Shown here one piece after another: positions 4,286 to 12,471 of a stretch of 64,000 bases of DNA. A model generated the notes under the pieces. It did no database searches and was not told where the DNA came from. It saw only the letters and a program-made list of their open reading frames with translations. Source of the stretch: Archaeoglobaceae archaeon. Its GTDB lineage: Archaea; Halobacteriota; Archaeoglobi; Archaeoglobales; Archaeoglobaceae. Position 1 is the stretch's first letter. Every line of letters starts with the position of its first letter. Both the position numbers and the translations under genes were made by a program. The stretch spans positions 1 through 64,000 of the forward strand of contig JANXDX010000003.1 in NCBI GenBank assembly GCA_025058735.1. The letters run 5' to 3'.

Positions 4286-4336
4286 GGAGAAGAACTTAAT
4301 TCTTTTTTAATTTTTAGCTTAACCTTATCTGAAAAG

Positions 4337-4417
4337 CGCCGGGGGTGGGATTCGAACCCACGCGGGCAAAGCCCAACGGCTTAGCAGGCCGTCGCCTTAC
4401 CACTCGGCAACCCCGGC
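4337..4417 (-). tRNA. tRNA-Ser (GCU anticodon)
   Basis: On the minus strand the 7-bp acceptor stem GCCGGGG pairs with CCCCGGC and the discriminator is G. The D-arm is TTGCCGAGTGGTAAGGC, the anticodon arm carries CTGCTAAG (anticodon GCU, serine AGC/AGU codons), the variable arm is GGGCTTTGCCC, and the T-arm contains GGTTCGAATCCC. The long variable arm is diagnostic of tRNA-Ser. CCA is not encoded and no intron is seen. The stems are almost entirely G/C although the region is AT-rich, as expected for a thermophile. Confidence 0.97.
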
Positions 4418-4465: not shown

Positions 4466-4846
4466 TTAAGTTTGACTTGGTTTGATCAGGAGCAAGTTTA
4501 TTGGCTTCTTAATTTTTTCTTCAATAGTCTTTCTTATTTTTTCAATTTCATCTCTATTCAGTTCTCTGTTTGAACATATGTAGAGAGATGAAGCGATCAT
4601 TTCATAAAAAGATTTGTAAGCTATTATTCTACTGCTACTCTTTTTCCTCGATCCAGAACGAGTTTTTATTGTTATGGTCTTTTTTTGCGTAACTTGAAAC
4701 TCTACAGCTTCAACATCACTTAACTCAACATCTTTCAAAGCTAGTACAGTTTTCACTATCTCTGCATCACCTTGAATTCCTTCGATCGTGTAGATGTAGT
4801 TGTATTCTTCCATCCACCTCTTTTCCGTTTCAACTCTGATCTGCAT
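4466..4846 (-). CDS. hypothetical protein, 126 aa
   Basis: I do not recognise this family. The protein has no membrane segment, no signal peptide and no cysteine cluster (one Cys in LYICSNREL). It looks like a small alpha/beta protein: an acidic N-terminal half with alternating hydrophobic residues (VEAVEFQVTQKKTITIKT), a basic Ser/Arg/Lys stretch (SGSRKKSSSR) near residues 65-73, then a charged helix (RDEIEKIRKTIEEKIKK). It starts with ATG at 4846 and lies between tRNA-Ser and a divergent radical SAM gene, 53 bp apart. The basic patch could bind nucleic acid, but that is only a guess. Codon use resembles its neighbours, so I take it as real. Confidence 0.7.
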   Translation of the reverse strand: MQIRVETEKRWMEEYNYIYTIEGIQGDAEIVKTVLALKDVELSDVEAVEFQVTQKKTITIKTRSGSRKKSSSRIIAYKSFYEMIASSLYICSNRELNRDEIEKIRKTIEEKIKKPINLLLIKPSQT

Positions 4847-4899: not shown

Positions 4900-5907
4900 A
4901 TGCTCTACATTCTAATTTTAACACCAGAGTGCAACGGCAGTTGCATTTACTGCGGAGGATTTGAAGAGGGTTTAATGCCTAAAGAGCTGAAGTTCACGAT
5001 AGAAGATCTAAAAAATTTTTTATCTAACGATGATAAACCTTCGATAGCATTTTACGGTGGAGAGCCCTTGCTGAAACTTGACGTGATGATAGATATCATA
5101 GACAAAGTTTACGCTGAACATTACATTCTGCAAACGAACGGTCTCTTGCTGCATAGATTGCCAAAAGATTATGTTAGAGAGTTTTCTACTATTTTAATTT
5201 CATTCGACGGAAGAAGAGAAGTTCACAACTACTACAGAGGGAATTACGACAAAGTTCTAAAAAATGTCAAGGAGATTGGTAAGTTTTTCGATGGAGAGTT
5301 AATAGCTAGAATGGTTGCAAGCAGAAGAACAGATATATATGAAGATGTTAGGCACGTAATTTCTTTGAACTGTTTTACTCACGTTCACTGGCAGATAGAT
5401 GCTGTATGGTGTAGTAGAGATGGTTTCGATGTTTGGGTTGAAAAGTACAACAGAGATGTTTTGAGGTTGTTCAATTTTTGGATAGATGAAATTGGAAAAG
5501 GAAGGATCTACAACATAGTACCGTTCATTGGTATAGCTACAGCTTTCAAAAAACCCTTCACTTATCCACCTTGTTCTTCTGGTTTTGAATCTTTTGCAAT
5601 AACAACGGATGGAAAAGTTTTGGCATGTCCGATCTGTCCAGATCTAGAATGGAATGTTCTAGGAGATTTATGGAAGGGATTTAGAGTTGGTGTTGAAATA
5701 CTTGATCCCTGTCCAAGATGTGAATTTTTCAGCTTTTGTGGAGGAAGATGTTTGTTTTTCAATAGGGAAAGACTTTGGGGTGAAGACGGATTTGAAAAAG
5801 TCTGTTATACAGTAAAAAATTTGGTGAAAGCTTTAAAAAGTAAGATCAACGAGATACCAGATGTTACATATCCAAAGTTTTTAAACACGACGGAGATTAT
5901 TCCATAG
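4900..5907 (+). CDS. radical SAM protein with SPASM-like C-terminal cysteines (AF1420-like putative peptide-modifying enzyme)
   Basis: The N-terminus carries the radical SAM [4Fe-4S] motif CNGSCIYC (CxxxCxxC) at about residues 10-17, then FYGGEPLL, the glycine-rich SAM-binding segment typical of the family. After residue 220 there are many more cysteines (PPCSSG, LACPICPD, CPRCEFFSFCGGRC and a final C), a SPASM/twitch-like arrangement that would hold auxiliary Fe-S clusters. Enzymes with this layout often modify peptides or proteins. The overall form fits the archaeal AF1420-type family, named from memory. The stop is 1 bp before the start of a DUF5611-like gene, so the two are probably cotranscribed. 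Substrate unknown. A TATA-like AGATTAAAAC lies about 26 bp upstream of the ATG. Confidence 0.82.
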   Translation: MLYILILTPECNGSCIYCGGFEEGLMPKELKFTIEDLKNFLSNDDKPSIAFYGGEPLLKLDVMIDIIDKVYAEHYILQTNGLLLHRLPKDYVREFSTILISFDGRREVHNYYRGNYDKVLKNVKEIGKFFDGELIARMVASRRTDIYEDVRHVISLNCFTHVHWQIDAVWCSRDGFDVWVEKYNRDVLRLFNFWIDEIGKGRIYNIVPFIGIATAFKKPFTYPPCSSGFESFAITTDGKVLACPICPDLEWNVLGDLWKGFRVGVEILDPCPRCEFFSFCGGRCLFFNRERLWGEDGFEKVCYTVKNLVKALKSKINEIPDVTYPKFLNTTEIIP

Positions 5908-5908
5908 C

Positions 5909-6208
5909 ATGAGAGAATATAAACTTAAAAAAGCAGCCACAAAAGAGGAACTTGAAGAGGTTTTGAAAAAATACTTTGGAAGCTTCGAATTCGACGGTGA
6001 ATACTATGTAGTCAAAAATTTTGGTGCTATTGAAGAGCTTAGAATGAAAGTTGAAAAAAGAAAGCTTTTTGTAGAATCAAGGACGAAGATAGTTGACAAT
6101 GAGAGTTCGATCAAAACTTTAAAAACTTACAACAATTTCTTGGAAGAATTTACCGGTTACAGTGCAAAGGAGAGGATGAAGATGCTTATGAGAGAAGTTG
6201 ACGTGTGA
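5909..6208 (+). CDS. small DUF5611-like protein
   Basis: A 99-residue soluble protein beginning REYKLKKAATKEEL, with an FDGEYYVV segment and a C-terminal half ending YNNFLEEFTGYSAKERMK. The pattern of an REYK start and an FLEE-TGY-AKER end matches the archaeal DUF5611 family as I remember it. It has no cysteines, membrane segment or known catalytic motif. It starts one base after the radical SAM stop, so it is likely translated with it and may be its partner or chaperone; this is inference from position only. A 45-bp gap with a TATA-like stretch separates it from ftsZ. Confidence 0.7.
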   Translation: MREYKLKKAATKEELEEVLKKYFGSFEFDGEYYVVKNFGAIEELRMKVEKRKLFVESRTKIVDNESSIKTLKTYNNFLEEFTGYSAKERMKMLMREVDV

Positions 6209-8451: not shown

Positions 8452-8838
8452 CTAAACTTCAGGTAGCTTTAGAGCTGAAACTGGACATACTTTTACACAT
8501 ATCTCACAGTGGATACATCTTTCTTCAAAAACCAAAATTTTTCTTTCTTCATCGAAGTTTATAGCTTCAGTTGGACAAACACTTATACAAAGACCGCAGT
8601 GAACACAATTCTCATCTACAGTCACTCCTCTCTTTAATTCCAAAACTGAGACTCCTTCAGAGATCAGAAAATCTTCAACTTCCTTAGCTTTTTCATCTGG
8701 AACCTCTATCAGTATTTCGCCTTTTCTAGATTCAACAAATGCTCTAAGGATGTTTATCAAGGCACCTGTTTTTAATGCAGCACTTGAAAGCAGAGGCCTT
8801 TTAACTGTTTTTGAATCGTACTTTAAAAGCAACCTCAT
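8452..8838 (-). CDS. NIL-domain ferredoxin (2x[4Fe-4S]), partner of the homocysteine-forming sulfurtransferase
   Basis: The N-terminal ~75 residues form a NIL-type domain (LLLKYDSKTVKRPLLSSAA, then ILIEVPDEKAKEVEDFLISEG). The C-terminus carries two ferredoxin motifs, CVHCGLCISVCP and CIHCEICVKVCP. In Methanosarcina the pair DUF39/CBS protein plus NIL-ferredoxin (MA1821/MA1822) is needed to make homocysteine from aspartate semialdehyde, and this pair matches. I chose ATG 8838 because AAGGTGAT, which includes the upstream gene's stop, sits just before it; an in-frame ATG at 8853 would lie inside the upstream gene. The two genes are 4 bp apart on the same strand. Confidence 0.93.
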   Translation of the reverse strand: MRLLLKYDSKTVKRPLLSSAALKTGALINILRAFVESRKGEILIEVPDEKAKEVEDFLISEGVSVLELKRGVTVDENCVHCGLCISVCPTEAINFDEERKILVFEERCIHCEICVKVCPVSALKLPEV

Positions 8839-8842
8839 TTCA

Positions 8843-10318
8843 TCACCTTGCAAGGAGTTTACTCAGATCTTCACTCGTAACTATTCCCAAAACTTTCAAG
8901 TTCACATCAACAACTGGAAGTGCTGATATATCGTGTTTTTCCATTTTAGATGCTGCAAGTTCTATTGGTTCATCTGGATTTGCAGTTACAACTTTTTTTG
9001 TCATGATCCCATTTATTTTACCTTTGTAACCTATCGCAACTGCTTTTGCTATGTCCCAGGAGGTAATTATGCCAACAAGCTTTCCCTCATCATCTACTAT
9101 CGGTATGTGGTTTATGCTTTTTTCGATCATAACTTTAGCAGCCTCCTCCAAGCTGACGTCTTCTTTCAAAACGATCGCCCCTCTCATAACTTTTCTTACG
9201 AACATAACCTTCTGTCTCATAGGCTTTAAAACTCTACTTCTGGGAATACTATCTACCGGCTCAGTTAGGAAAAAGTCCCCCTTCTCTATCATCTTCTTCA
9301 ACTCTTTCATTATCTTTTCTGCCATGTAAAAACTTGAAAGAGACGAAACTCTAACTTCTTGACCTTTTATTTCAACTTTTCCACTTAAAAGTTCAGCATA
9401 ACTAACTTTTTTAACTACCGGTCTATTTCTTCTAGCTACTCCAAAGTCTATTATCTCTGTTTCAATTTCAGAGTTTCTTACAGCTGTAAAGCTTGCGATC
9501 TCTTCATCCAGTATAGGTATTGGAATTCCTATTCCGACGAAAAGAGATGCTCCATAGCCTGGAAAATAGCAAGCTTTCATGAAATCTGGTTTCATCTCTT
9601 TCAAATTTCCAGAAACCATCAGAGTTCCGAACGGTGGTGAATGCTGAGTACCTTCACCGATCACGTAGCCTTTAGCTCCGCAAAGAAAGATCCTAGTTCC
9701 AACCCCTATTGTTCTGTAAAGAGGATCGTTGTTCAAAGGAGAGATCTCTCCACATCCTGCAAAAGTTATGTTTCCGTAGTTTGGTAGAAGTGTTCCCATG
9801 TATGTTCTCAGAACTCTATCGCTGGAATTCGTTGCAGCTCTGTAACGCTGATAAGCGTTTCTTGGATTCACCATTATAGCTTGATTTATGTCTTCCAAAG
9901 AAATTTCAGTTTCAATTTCTTTTCTAGGATAGCAGTCTGTTCCGTATCCTATAGCTCTAAGTTCAACCTCTTTCCCCTTGACCAACTCTTCTATTACATG
10001 ACCTCCACCATAGTTTTCTCTAGTTTCTGAAAGCTGAGTAACTCCAAGGTAAGCATCTACAGCTGCTATACCTTTGTAAGCCTCAACATCGTTTAGCCAG
10101 ACTCTTCTCATTCTTATTGGAGGATCTGAATGTCCAAAATTTAAAAAGACACCACTTGAGCACATTGCTCCAAAAGTCCCAGTTGTTACAACGTCTACTT
10201 CTTTTACAGCTTTTTTTACTCCAATTTCCGCTATAATTTCTTTTATTTCTTTTGCAGTAGCTACAGAGACGTTTCCTTCTTTTATTTTTTCGTTTATTTC
10301 ATTTATCGTTTTTTCCAT
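8843..10318 (-). CDS. L-aspartate semialdehyde sulfurtransferase-like protein (DUF39/COG1900 with two CBS domains)
   Basis: The DUF39 domain occupies about residues 1-365 and two CBS repeats fill the rest (HIPIVDDEGKLVGIITSWDIA and ALPVVDVNLKVLGIVTSEDLS). DUF39 proteins replace the aspartate semialdehyde carbonyl with sulfur to give homocysteine without O-acyl-homoserine. Two conserved cysteines are present at positions 53 (GAMCSSG) and 129 (GYGTDCYP), close to the pair reported as essential in the Methanosarcina enzyme (C54, C131, from memory). The CBS pair may sense an adenosyl ligand such as SAM. A TATA-like box lies about 25 bp before ATG 10318. It is followed by its ferredoxin gene. Confidence 0.92.
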   Translation of the reverse strand: MEKTINEINEKIKEGNVSVATAKEIKEIIAEIGVKKAVKEVDVVTTGTFGAMCSSGVFLNFGHSDPPIRMRRVWLNDVEAYKGIAAVDAYLGVTQLSETRENYGGGHVIEELVKGKEVELRAIGYGTDCYPRKEIETEISLEDINQAIMVNPRNAYQRYRAATNSSDRVLRTYMGTLLPNYGNITFAGCGEISPLNNDPLYRTIGVGTRIFLCGAKGYVIGEGTQHSPPFGTLMVSGNLKEMKPDFMKACYFPGYGASLFVGIGIPIPILDEEIASFTAVRNSEIETEIIDFGVARRNRPVVKKVSYAELLSGKVEIKGQEVRVSSLSSFYMAEKIMKELKKMIEKGDFFLTEPVDSIPRSRVLKPMRQKVMFVRKVMRGAIVLKEDVSLEEAAKVMIEKSINHIPIVDDEGKLVGIITSWDIAKAVAIGYKGKINGIMTKKVVTANPDEPIELAASKMEKHDISALPVVDVNLKVLGIVTSEDLSKLLAR

Positions 10319-10408: not shown

Positions 10409-11434
10409 TTATTTATTTTTTAAGATATTTGGAACATTCAACTCGTACGGCGGCCAAACTATACCTAGCTCTGTAACTATTGCCGTAACATAACTCAGAG
10501 GTGTTGCATCGAAAGCGGGGTTGTAAACTTTTACATTCTTCGGAGCTAGAACCTTTTCTCCACAGTATATCAGTTCATTGGGATCCCTTTCTTCTACAAC
10601 AACTTCATCGGAACATTTATCCCAATCAAACGTAGTCGTTGGAGCTGCAACATAGAAAGGTATTTTGTGCTCTTTTGCAACTATTGCTATTGTATAAGTT
10701 CCAATTTTGTTAAAAACTGCATCTCTAACTATTCTGTCAGCTCCTACAATTACTTTTTTTACCATTTTCTTTTTCATCACAGTACCAACCATGTTGTCAG
10801 CGATCAGAGTTACATCTATTCCATCCTGCATAAGTTCCCAGCAAGTTAATCTAGAACCTTGGTTTAGAGGTCTAGTTTCGCAGGCAAATACTTTTATCTT
10901 TTTACCTACTTCAACTGCACTTCTAACAATACCTAAAGCTGTACCCCAGTCAACCGTTGCAAGTTTTCCGGTGTTGCAGTAAGTTAAAATTACATCATCA
11001 TCTTCCAACAACTCAGCTCCAATTTTTCCTATCATCTTGTTTCTCTTCACATCTTCTTCCGCAACTTTTTCAGCTTCAGTCAGAGCAATTTTTCTTATCT
11101 CATCAACACTTCTACCTTTTAAAGCAGAATCCAAAACTCTTTTTACTCCAACAGATAAATTTACAGCAGTGGGTCTAGCGTTTTTTAGTTTTTCAGCCTT
11201 TTCAATCAGATACCTTTTCATCTCTTCAACGTTGGAAAATTCTTTTTCAAAAGCAGACAGAGCTACACCGTAAGCTCCAGCAGCTTCCAAAGCTGGAGCC
11301 CCTCTTATAGACAACTTTTTTATTGCATCTATTAGCTGATCAACTCCTCTACACTCAACTACTTCCAGCTTTTCTGGAAGCTTCGTCTGATCTATCAACT
11401 TCACAGAACAGCTCTCCCAGAATATTGAGCGCAT
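10409..11434 (-). CDS. mtnA: S-methyl-5-thioribose-1-phosphate isomerase
   Basis: Converts methylthioribose-1-phosphate to methylthioribulose-1-phosphate in methionine or 5'-deoxyadenosine salvage. Family hallmarks are present: SIRGAPALEAAGAYG near residue 45, the catalytic-cysteine segment TYCNTGKLATV, the catalytic Asp in VGADRIVRDAVFNKIGTY, and the end segment AFDATPLSYVTAIVTE. Length (341 aa) is typical. The eIF2B-like relatives (ribose-1,5-bisphosphate isomerase) lack this full set of segments, so MtnA is the better call. It is divergent from a radical SAM gene. SpeE and the two deaminases elsewhere in the window fit the same salvage route. Confidence 0.93.
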   Translation of the reverse strand: MRSIFWESCSVKLIDQTKLPEKLEVVECRGVDQLIDAIKKLSIRGAPALEAAGAYGVALSAFEKEFSNVEEMKRYLIEKAEKLKNARPTAVNLSVGVKRVLDSALKGRSVDEIRKIALTEAEKVAEEDVKRNKMIGKIGAELLEDDDVILTYCNTGKLATVDWGTALGIVRSAVEVGKKIKVFACETRPLNQGSRLTCWELMQDGIDVTLIADNMVGTVMKKKMVKKVIVGADRIVRDAVFNKIGTYTIAIVAKEHKIPFYVAAPTTTFDWDKCSDEVVVEERDPNELIYCGEKVLAPKNVKVYNPAFDATPLSYVTAIVTELGIVWPPYELNVPNILKNK

Positions 11435-11472
11435 GTAGGATAAATTTTTTAAAATTTAAAAACTATTTGTTC

Positions 11473-12471
11473 GTGTTGGTGATAAATCCTAGTCCAAACG
11501 TCAGCCCATATTGCTACTCGTTGCTTCACGTTGAACCTTATTCAAGTTGCAGTTTCAAATGTACTTACTGCTTTGCCAGATGGTATAGAGGAGAAGTTCT
11601 GCAGCAGCAGAGAGAAGTTATAGACCTCTTTGAAAAAGTTTCGAAGCAGATGAGGATCAAAGATCTTAAGCCTTTTGCCTTTAGACTTTCAAGCTTCGTA
11701 GATCCGTTCCAACCGATTGAACATTCTTTTAAACTTTCAAGGAAAGTCATGAAAATAGCTTTGAATTACAAAGTTCCACTAATAATCAATACAAAAGCCG
11801 TTGGTTACGACAAAGATCTTTTGGAAAATTTAGCTTCAAAAGAACTTGCAGTTTTACAGGTTTCTTTAAGTGTGATCGGAGAGAAATTGTCTTCTTTACT
11901 AGAACCAAATGCTCCAAAACCTATTGAAAGGTTAGATTATGCTGAAAAAATTGAAGCACCAAAGATCTTAAGACTTCAACCTCTGATCCCAGGAGTCAGT
12001 GAGATCGAAGAGATAGTTGAACAAGCTAAGGCAGCAGGATTTAGGCATGTAATTGCAGAAGTTTTGAGAGATGATGAAAAGAACATGCAAATTTATCGAA
12101 GAATTTCAAAAGATTTTCCAGAACTTGAAGTATATAACCCATCTGTTGAAGTTGGAAAAGTTTTAAGACCAAAGGCTGAATTTAGGCTAAAAATTTATGA
12201 AGAAGTTAAAAGAAAAGCCGAAAAAGTAGGTTTGGATTTTTCTGTATGTAAGGAACCATTTTTTGACCTAAACACAAAGAATTGCTGCGGAATGCACTAC
12301 TTAGACTGTGCAATCAGAATAACTTTGAAGGAGTTAAAAGAGGGGAACTTTAAAAACTTTGTTTACGGAGATGAACTTAAGAAGTATCCAAAAGCTATCG
12401 GTAAAGGCCTAAGGTGGCATGAAAAGGTTTTGATGAAGGTCGCTCAAGAAAAATTTAAAATATCAGTTTGA
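11473..12471 (+). CDS. radical SAM protein of the SPL-like family
   Basis: The radical SAM motif CSFKCTYCFARWY follows HVEPYSS near the N-terminus, an arrangement typical of archaeal spore-photoproduct-lyase-like/COG1533 radical SAM proteins. A core with FRLSSFVDPFQPIE follows, and a late pair of cysteines (NCCGMHYLDC) could bind a second cluster. Function is unknown; COG1533 members are often annotated as DNA repair photolyase-like without proof. The frame is open further upstream into the divergent mtnA gene, so I prefer a GTG at 11473 (or 11479), just before INPSPNVSPYC. No ribosome site is visible and the transcript may be leaderless. It converges on the dehydratase gene with a 9-bp overlap. 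Confidence 0.8.
   Translation: MLVINPSPNVSPYCYSLLHVEPYSSCSFKCTYCFARWYRGEVLQQQREVIDLFEKVSKQMRIKDLKPFAFRLSSFVDPFQPIEHSFKLSRKVMKIALNYKVPLIINTKAVGYDKDLLENLASKELAVLQVSLSVIGEKLSSLLEPNAPKPIERLDYAEKIEAPKILRLQPLIPGVSEIEEIVEQAKAAGFRHVIAEVLRDDEKNMQIYRRISKDFPELEVYNPSVEVGKVLRPKAEFRLKIYEEVKRKAEKVGLDFSVCKEPFFDLNTKNCCGMHYLDCAIRITLKELKEGNFKNFVYGDELKKYPKAIGKGLRWHEKVLMKVAQEKFKISV

Follow-up and report, generated by a model that had tools for sequence, protein, structure and literature searches.

Radical SAM enzymes cleave SAM at an iron-sulfur cluster and the resulting radical takes a hydrogen from the substrate, while auxiliary clusters handle electrons or bind substrate. Where the auxiliary clusters sit in a SPASM domain, the cysteines follow the pattern CX9-15GX4C - CX2CX5CX3C - C. 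The sactipeptide thioether enzyme CteB, the closest solved structural relative of the enzyme considered here, has an N-terminal leader-binding domain and an open cluster site, and next in structural likeness stands anSMEcpe, an anaerobic sulfatase-maturating enzyme. By sequence the enzyme falls within TIGR04084 (rSAM_AF0577), from which we found no difference; the description line of this family gives no substrate and does not mention a terminal motif, and to our knowledge no substrate has been assigned to it. Judged by titles, our literature search found no description of the function of the TIGR04084 family or of its terminal tail. The small protein encoded beside the enzyme belongs to the same DUF5611 family as Ta0095 (PDB 2joi).

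Because the C-terminal tail of the enzyme becomes central below, precedents from other radical SAM enzymes are relevant. MoaA has a Gly-Gly C-terminal tail, a motif for which our literature search gave no paper. Lipoyl synthase carries a conserved RSSY motif at its C-terminal end (PMC13232139), and in QueE a hydrogen bond from the C-terminal tail to the substrate tightened in simulations (PMC8124187, section 3.2). PMC5352715 is a further paper cited beside these precedents, and the accessible portion of another QueE paper (PMC5347944) holds no passage on the C-terminus. The likeness to lipoyl synthase is one of functional analogy only, that enzyme having another motif and another auxiliary-cluster domain, and we found no description, judged by titles, of a comparable tail device in SPASM enzymes.

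The locus lies in a stretch of Archaeoglobaceae DNA of 64,000 nucleotides, hereafter the window. A sequence-only reading had picked out two genes in it as the best candidate for an undescribed modification system, a radical SAM/SPASM-like enzyme and a DUF5611-like partner 1 bp apart. Both ORFs (4900-5907 and 5909-6208) are present on the same strand with exactly that gap, and the window's genome holds one over-cut-off match each for TIGR04084 and DUF5611. The features concerned are as follows.

4900..5907, plus strand: radical SAM/SPASM enzyme, TIGR04084 (rSAM_AF0577), 335 aa, 353.3 bits
4930..4953, plus strand: SAM-binding [4Fe-4S] cluster motif CX3CX2C at residues 11-18
5572..5805, plus strand: SPASM cysteines C225, C243, C271, C274, C280, C284 and C302, predicted to hold two auxiliary clusters
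5884..5904, plus strand: C-terminal tail N-T-T-E-I-I-P, stop codon directly 3'
5909..6208, plus strand: DUF5611 protein (PF18446), 99 aa, 87.8 bits
6254..7354, plus strand: FtsZ, next gene downstream, context only (TIGR00065, 469.9 bits, cut-off 295.2)

Divergent from the enzyme gene is a 126-aa ORF (4466-4846, minus strand) that matches nothing in Pfam or NCBIfam at E 0.001, and a tRNA-Ser (GCT) gene occupies 4336-4417 on the minus strand, where short ORFs running across the tRNA mimic small peptides. Elsewhere in the window, a NIL/4Fe-4S protein and an HcyBio-CBS protein are encoded in tandem (8452-10318, minus strand) and match homocysteine-biosynthesis families, and a 352-aa part, starting at 11413, of the ORF at 11323-12471 (plus strand) gives a weak radical SAM match of 21.7 bits, below the Pfam cut-off of 29.5.

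The family assignment of the enzyme is firm: it scores 353.3 bits against a curated cut-off of 225 for TIGR04084, and 38.1 bits against a cut-off of 29.5 for the radical SAM superfamily profile PF04055. It does not reach the cut-offs of two other groups, scoring 38.2 bits against the anaerobic sulfatase maturase model TIGR03942 (cut-off 349.45) and 66.3 bits against the model for PapB-type ranthipeptide maturases, NF047865 (cut-off 340), although the latter is its second-best NCBIfam match. For conservation we used an alignment of 66 sequences, the window's enzyme and 65 of the 80 loci collected, from a total of 81; left out were L212 (start misplaced), L236 (frame shift), L238 and L249 (partial) and, as redundant, L218, L219, L226, L258, L265, L275, L278 and L280-L283. 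The TIGR04084 profile matches 66 of these 66 at E 0.001 or better. All three cysteines of C11-X3-C15-X2-C18 are invariant, and the SPASM pattern is present in full as C225-X12-G238-X4-C243, C271-X2-C274-X5-C280-X3-C284 and C302. Six of the seven SPASM positions are cysteine in all 66 sequences and the seventh, C271, in 65. At the first SPASM site a single cysteine precedes GX4C, as in CteB, and the first auxiliary cluster probably has only three cysteine ligands. A possible exchange between C246 and a cysteine in the tail was considered and set aside: the two occur together in only 1 of 66 sequences, but neither occurs in 29, and the pattern looks lineage-bound.

An AlphaFold2 model of the enzyme has a mean pLDDT of 94.9, and its best solved relatives by VIA-align Z are CteB (29.0), anSMEcpe (27.4), ChlB (25.9) and TigE (21.8), followed by the peptide modifiers SkfB and SuiB (both 17.9) and the small-molecule enzymes BlsE (17.4), MoaA (16.4), viperins (up to 16.3) and PqqE (15.4); the peptide epimerase EpeE reaches only 13.1. 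VIA-align was applied as a second look at Foldseek matches, so a family missing from this ranking proves nothing. The likeness to CteB (PDB 5wgg, 5why) extends over 310 residues and includes the C-X12-G-X4-C spacing at the start of the SPASM domain, but identity is 22% and nothing in the enzyme matches CteB before residue 94, with which residue 1 of the model aligns. Because the barrel begins at residue 1, no N-terminal domain precedes it, and in this model alignment the enzyme has no fused leader-binding domain (RRE). The match to anSMEcpe (PDB 4k36-4k39) extends over 321 residues at 18% identity, with a cysteine pattern at the first SPASM site unlike that of the enzyme. The four best solved relatives all modify peptides or proteins, in agreement with the class that the sequence-only reading had assigned, and the predicted fold points to an enzyme of that class. 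Below these four, however, peptide modifiers and small-molecule enzymes lie close together in Z, and the fold therefore suggests, but does not prove, modification of a protein or peptide.

If the two adjacent genes formed a modification system, they would be expected to stay together. All ten genomes of the window's genus carry both genes, yet these are adjacent in only two, the window's genome and G122. They are apart in seven: on the same contig but distant in G087 (~36 kb) and G057 (~188 kb), and on different contigs in G169, G178, G198, G228 and G258. In the tenth, G286, the genes lie on different contigs and the enzyme gene is truncated by a contig end. When the window and 115 enzyme loci were searched with profiles, with less than 1 kb of flank on one side in 14 of the 80 loci of the wider set, DUF5611 turned up beside the enzyme in no place other than the window and L090/L209, two handles for one genome. 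In that genome 30 bp with a T-run separate the genes, which shows that the 1-bp spacing is not conserved, and a small FastTree of the enzyme does not place the two genomes with the adjacent pair as sisters. The tight spacing could mean that the two genes are co-transcribed in this organism.

Distribution separates the families further. A scan of one genome per species gave 399 stretches related to the enzyme, and the best 80 of these 399, taken as loci, come from Archaeoglobi, Asgard groups, Thermoplasmata, Bathyarchaeota, Thermoproteota, Methanoperedens and others. A member that passes the TIGR04084 cut-off is also found in Sulfolobus acidocaldarius. The enzyme is usually single-copy, with two copies in G476. 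In the window's phylum, which we take to be Halobacteriota, DUF5611 occurs in 323 of 392 genomes and TIGR04084 in 123; DUF5611 is found in 122 of the 123 enzyme-bearing genomes, but also in 201 of the 269 enzyme-free ones, so that the overlap is mostly a consequence of the high frequency of DUF5611. The phylum of the Thermoplasmata genome G395 (presumably Thermoplasmatota) is similar, with the enzyme in 18 of 77 genomes (17 over cut-off), DUF5611 in 67 of 77, and DUF5611 present in 17 of 18 enzyme-bearing and 50 of 59 enzyme-free genomes. Joint presence in both phyla was counted by eye from tables that left out 49 DUF5611-less and 249 enzyme-less genomes of the window's phylum. In the phylum of the Thermoproteus genome G436, assumed here to be Thermoproteota, the enzyme is present in 37 of 81 genomes (36 over cut-off) and DUF5611 in 0 of 81. 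Outside Archaeoglobi, 40 of 50 further enzyme-bearing genomes (the 50 tested among 56 named loci, of unstated completeness) have no DUF5611. Rare co-occurrence of the families, which the sequence-only reading had itself named as counting against its proposal, is what the phylum of G436 and the 50 further genomes show, whereas joint presence is nearly complete among the enzyme-bearing genomes of the other two phyla. A link between the two families confined to those two phyla could conceivably exist on these counts.

Counted by eye, 32 of 55 genomes of the window's own family have the enzyme, a patchy presence in which even near-complete genomes (G050, G097 and G102 among them) are without it, but it is present in all 79 genomes listed, each bearing DUF5611, of seven other families (f6, f11, f13, f16, f23, f24 and f36). 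The enzyme thus belongs to a family that is known but uncharacterised, and its gene stands alone and is widespread in archaea.

The small neighbour is indeed a DUF5611 protein, as proposed, at 87.8 bits over a PF18446 gathering cut-off of 25 and with a match to Ta0095 at E 4.1e-10, and its family has, again as had been stated, no known role. Because the window's protein lacks cysteine altogether, it could not receive a thioether link that starts from a cysteine of the substrate. Conservation was compared between 49 DUF5611 proteins from genomes with the enzyme and 63 from genomes without (112 of 323). The core residues L78, T82, G83, K87 and R89 are kept in 98-100% of both groups, whereas K7 is found in 49 of 49 with the enzyme and 75% without (otherwise Arg), and E88 in 49 of 49 and 62%. 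This difference may be due to lineage, because the enzyme-free set holds many distant lineages, and conservation is in any case weaker evidence than distribution and linkage against DUF5611 as the substrate. A single-sequence model of DUF5611 was poor (pLDDT 46.3). Elsewhere DUF5611 is mostly found in other company than in the window: a divergent PAC2 protein and DUF473, each named from one representative, flank it in 15 of 25 loci tested (among L119-L138); the 7 loci tested from the window's genus do not have them there, nor do L121, L129 and L130. This neighbourhood looks like the real conserved context of DUF5611.

In 81 loci, a few of them short of flanking sequence, no family of 20-80 aa ORFs lying up to 1.5 kb from the enzyme is common to the lineages, which bears out the statement that no obvious precursor adjoins the pair and sets the enzyme apart from CteB. 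The largest group without tRNA-like frames comes from four related Asgard-type loci (L240, L246, L256 and L277), where the enzyme gene is directly followed by an ORF of 48-59 aa that has a CVNC motif and a hydrophobic end; the other recurring small ORFs form groups of two or three loci, mostly close relatives, or are tRNA-like frames. Nor does any larger neighbour recur beyond close relatives, apart from common families such as transporters; one of the comparisons behind this covered 34 of 36 enzyme loci, the ORF picking having passed over L096 and L107. In five loci of the genus (L089, L091, L092, L094 and L097), OapC, OapB and a GTPase gene are convergent to the enzyme in place of DUF5611, and in L080 and L082 putative queuosine genes, recognised by eye, adjoin it. 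A link to FtsZ was also considered, since an FtsZ-like gene that clusters by BLAST with the FtsZ of the window lies 3.5 kb upstream of the enzyme in L093; the other neighbours in L093 differ, and this link was dropped.

A striking feature of the enzyme is its C-terminal end, which is nearly fixed. In a first alignment all 20 proteins end in E-I-I-P, in a wide set 78 of 79 complete proteins terminate in E-[IV]-[IM]-P with no residue after it, and across all loci exactly this ending is shared by 102 of 103 distinct complete homologues. The lone exception, L236 (10800-11300), has NNTTEIIP and a stop codon in another frame just past an early stop, probably because the assembly contains a frame shift. 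No substitution of E332 or P335 occurs in the 66 aligned sequences, whose mean column identity is 52%, and the tail is ordered in the AlphaFold2 model (mean pLDDT 94 for residues 321-330 and 83 for 331-335). DUF5611 proteins offer a contrast: they stop 6 to 19 residues past their last motif (10 or 11 residues in 75 of 110) and their last residues vary.

Taken together, these observations make it likely that the adjacency of the two genes is a lineage-specific coincidence, and that the enzyme acts alone on a protein or peptide encoded elsewhere with its tail in or over the active site. The contrary view, that of a dedicated two-gene system in which the DUF5611 protein is what the enzyme modifies, draws on the 1-bp spacing on one strand, the second adjacent pair in the genus, the presence of DUF5611 in nearly all enzyme-bearing genomes of two phyla, and the invariance of K7 and E88 alongside the enzyme. 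We regard it as highly improbable, K7 and E88 raising its odds only slightly. DUF5611 is common without the enzyme in both of these phyla, the enzyme occurs without DUF5611 in 37 of 81 genomes of a third and in most of the further genomes tested, the genes lie apart in seven of ten congeners, and the DUF5611 protein offers no cysteine. The idea of a two-gene modification system, which calls for conserved linkage and mutual co-occurrence, finds no support here, and DUF5611 as its substrate is rejected mainly on distribution and linkage. An enzyme that matures a small RiPP precursor, encoded nearby or elsewhere, would suit the CteB-like fold, the second-best match to the PapB model, the patchy presence in the window's own family and the CVNC ORF of the Asgard-type loci. 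Yet the PapB model matches all 66 members as other SPASM models do, its score is far below cut-off, no domain precedes the barrel, small ORFs beyond the CVNC group recur only in few-locus groups or tRNA-like frames, and seven other families have the enzyme in every DUF5611-bearing genome listed; this explanation seems unlikely to us.

Presence as a stand-alone gene in all listed genomes of several families would also suit an enzyme of a cofactor or metabolite pathway, acting on a small molecule that its C-terminal carboxylate binds. The QueE tail contacts a small substrate (PMC8124187), and BlsE, at Z 17.4, is a small-molecule enzyme. We find this proposal rather doubtful, since the four solved relatives that score best (Z 21.8-29.0) act on peptides or proteins, MoaA, the viperins and PqqE score lower, and no pathway genes recur beside the enzyme across lineages. 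The tail might instead be a sorting or cluster-delivery signal. A C-terminal tripeptide recruits the eukaryotic cytosolic iron-sulfur machinery, and the motif described here is likewise at the exact chain end; however, according to the same source the tripeptide is a hallmark of eukaryotic clients and few bacterial or archaeal iron-sulfur proteins end so (PMC10623007). The motif of TIGR04084 is moreover longer and predicted to be ordered, and we judge a delivery role to be quite improbable.

Returning to an enzyme that works alone on a substrate encoded elsewhere, its radical SAM cluster would make a 5'-deoxyadenosyl radical, the radical would remove a hydrogen from that protein or peptide, and the two SPASM auxiliary clusters would complete the reaction. 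A protein encoded elsewhere had been the second substrate option of the sequence-only reading. That the substrate would be a protein or peptide is what we infer from the fold class alone. The tail, N-x-x-E-[IV]-[IM]-P-COOH, would lie in or over the active site and either hold the substrate or supply a ligand to an auxiliary cluster; an active-site role, as in lipoyl synthase, appears most likely by analogy. A more specific version is tentative: TIGR04084 enzymes may carry part of their own active site in the tail, with the glutamate or the terminal carboxylate ligating the three-cysteine auxiliary cluster or clamping the substrate, and their target may be a conserved archaeal protein that is not yet known to carry a modification. 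At its boldest, this version would make the tail itself the modified stretch, a built-in substrate.

These results remove a false lead, since no module of a radical SAM enzyme and DUF5611 is supported. The conserved neighbourhood of DUF5611 with PAC2 and DUF473 merits study of its own. In place of the module, the locus provides a better lead, a widespread archaeal SPASM enzyme with a near-fixed C-terminal motif, and that motif is a direct mutational handle on the TIGR04084 family.
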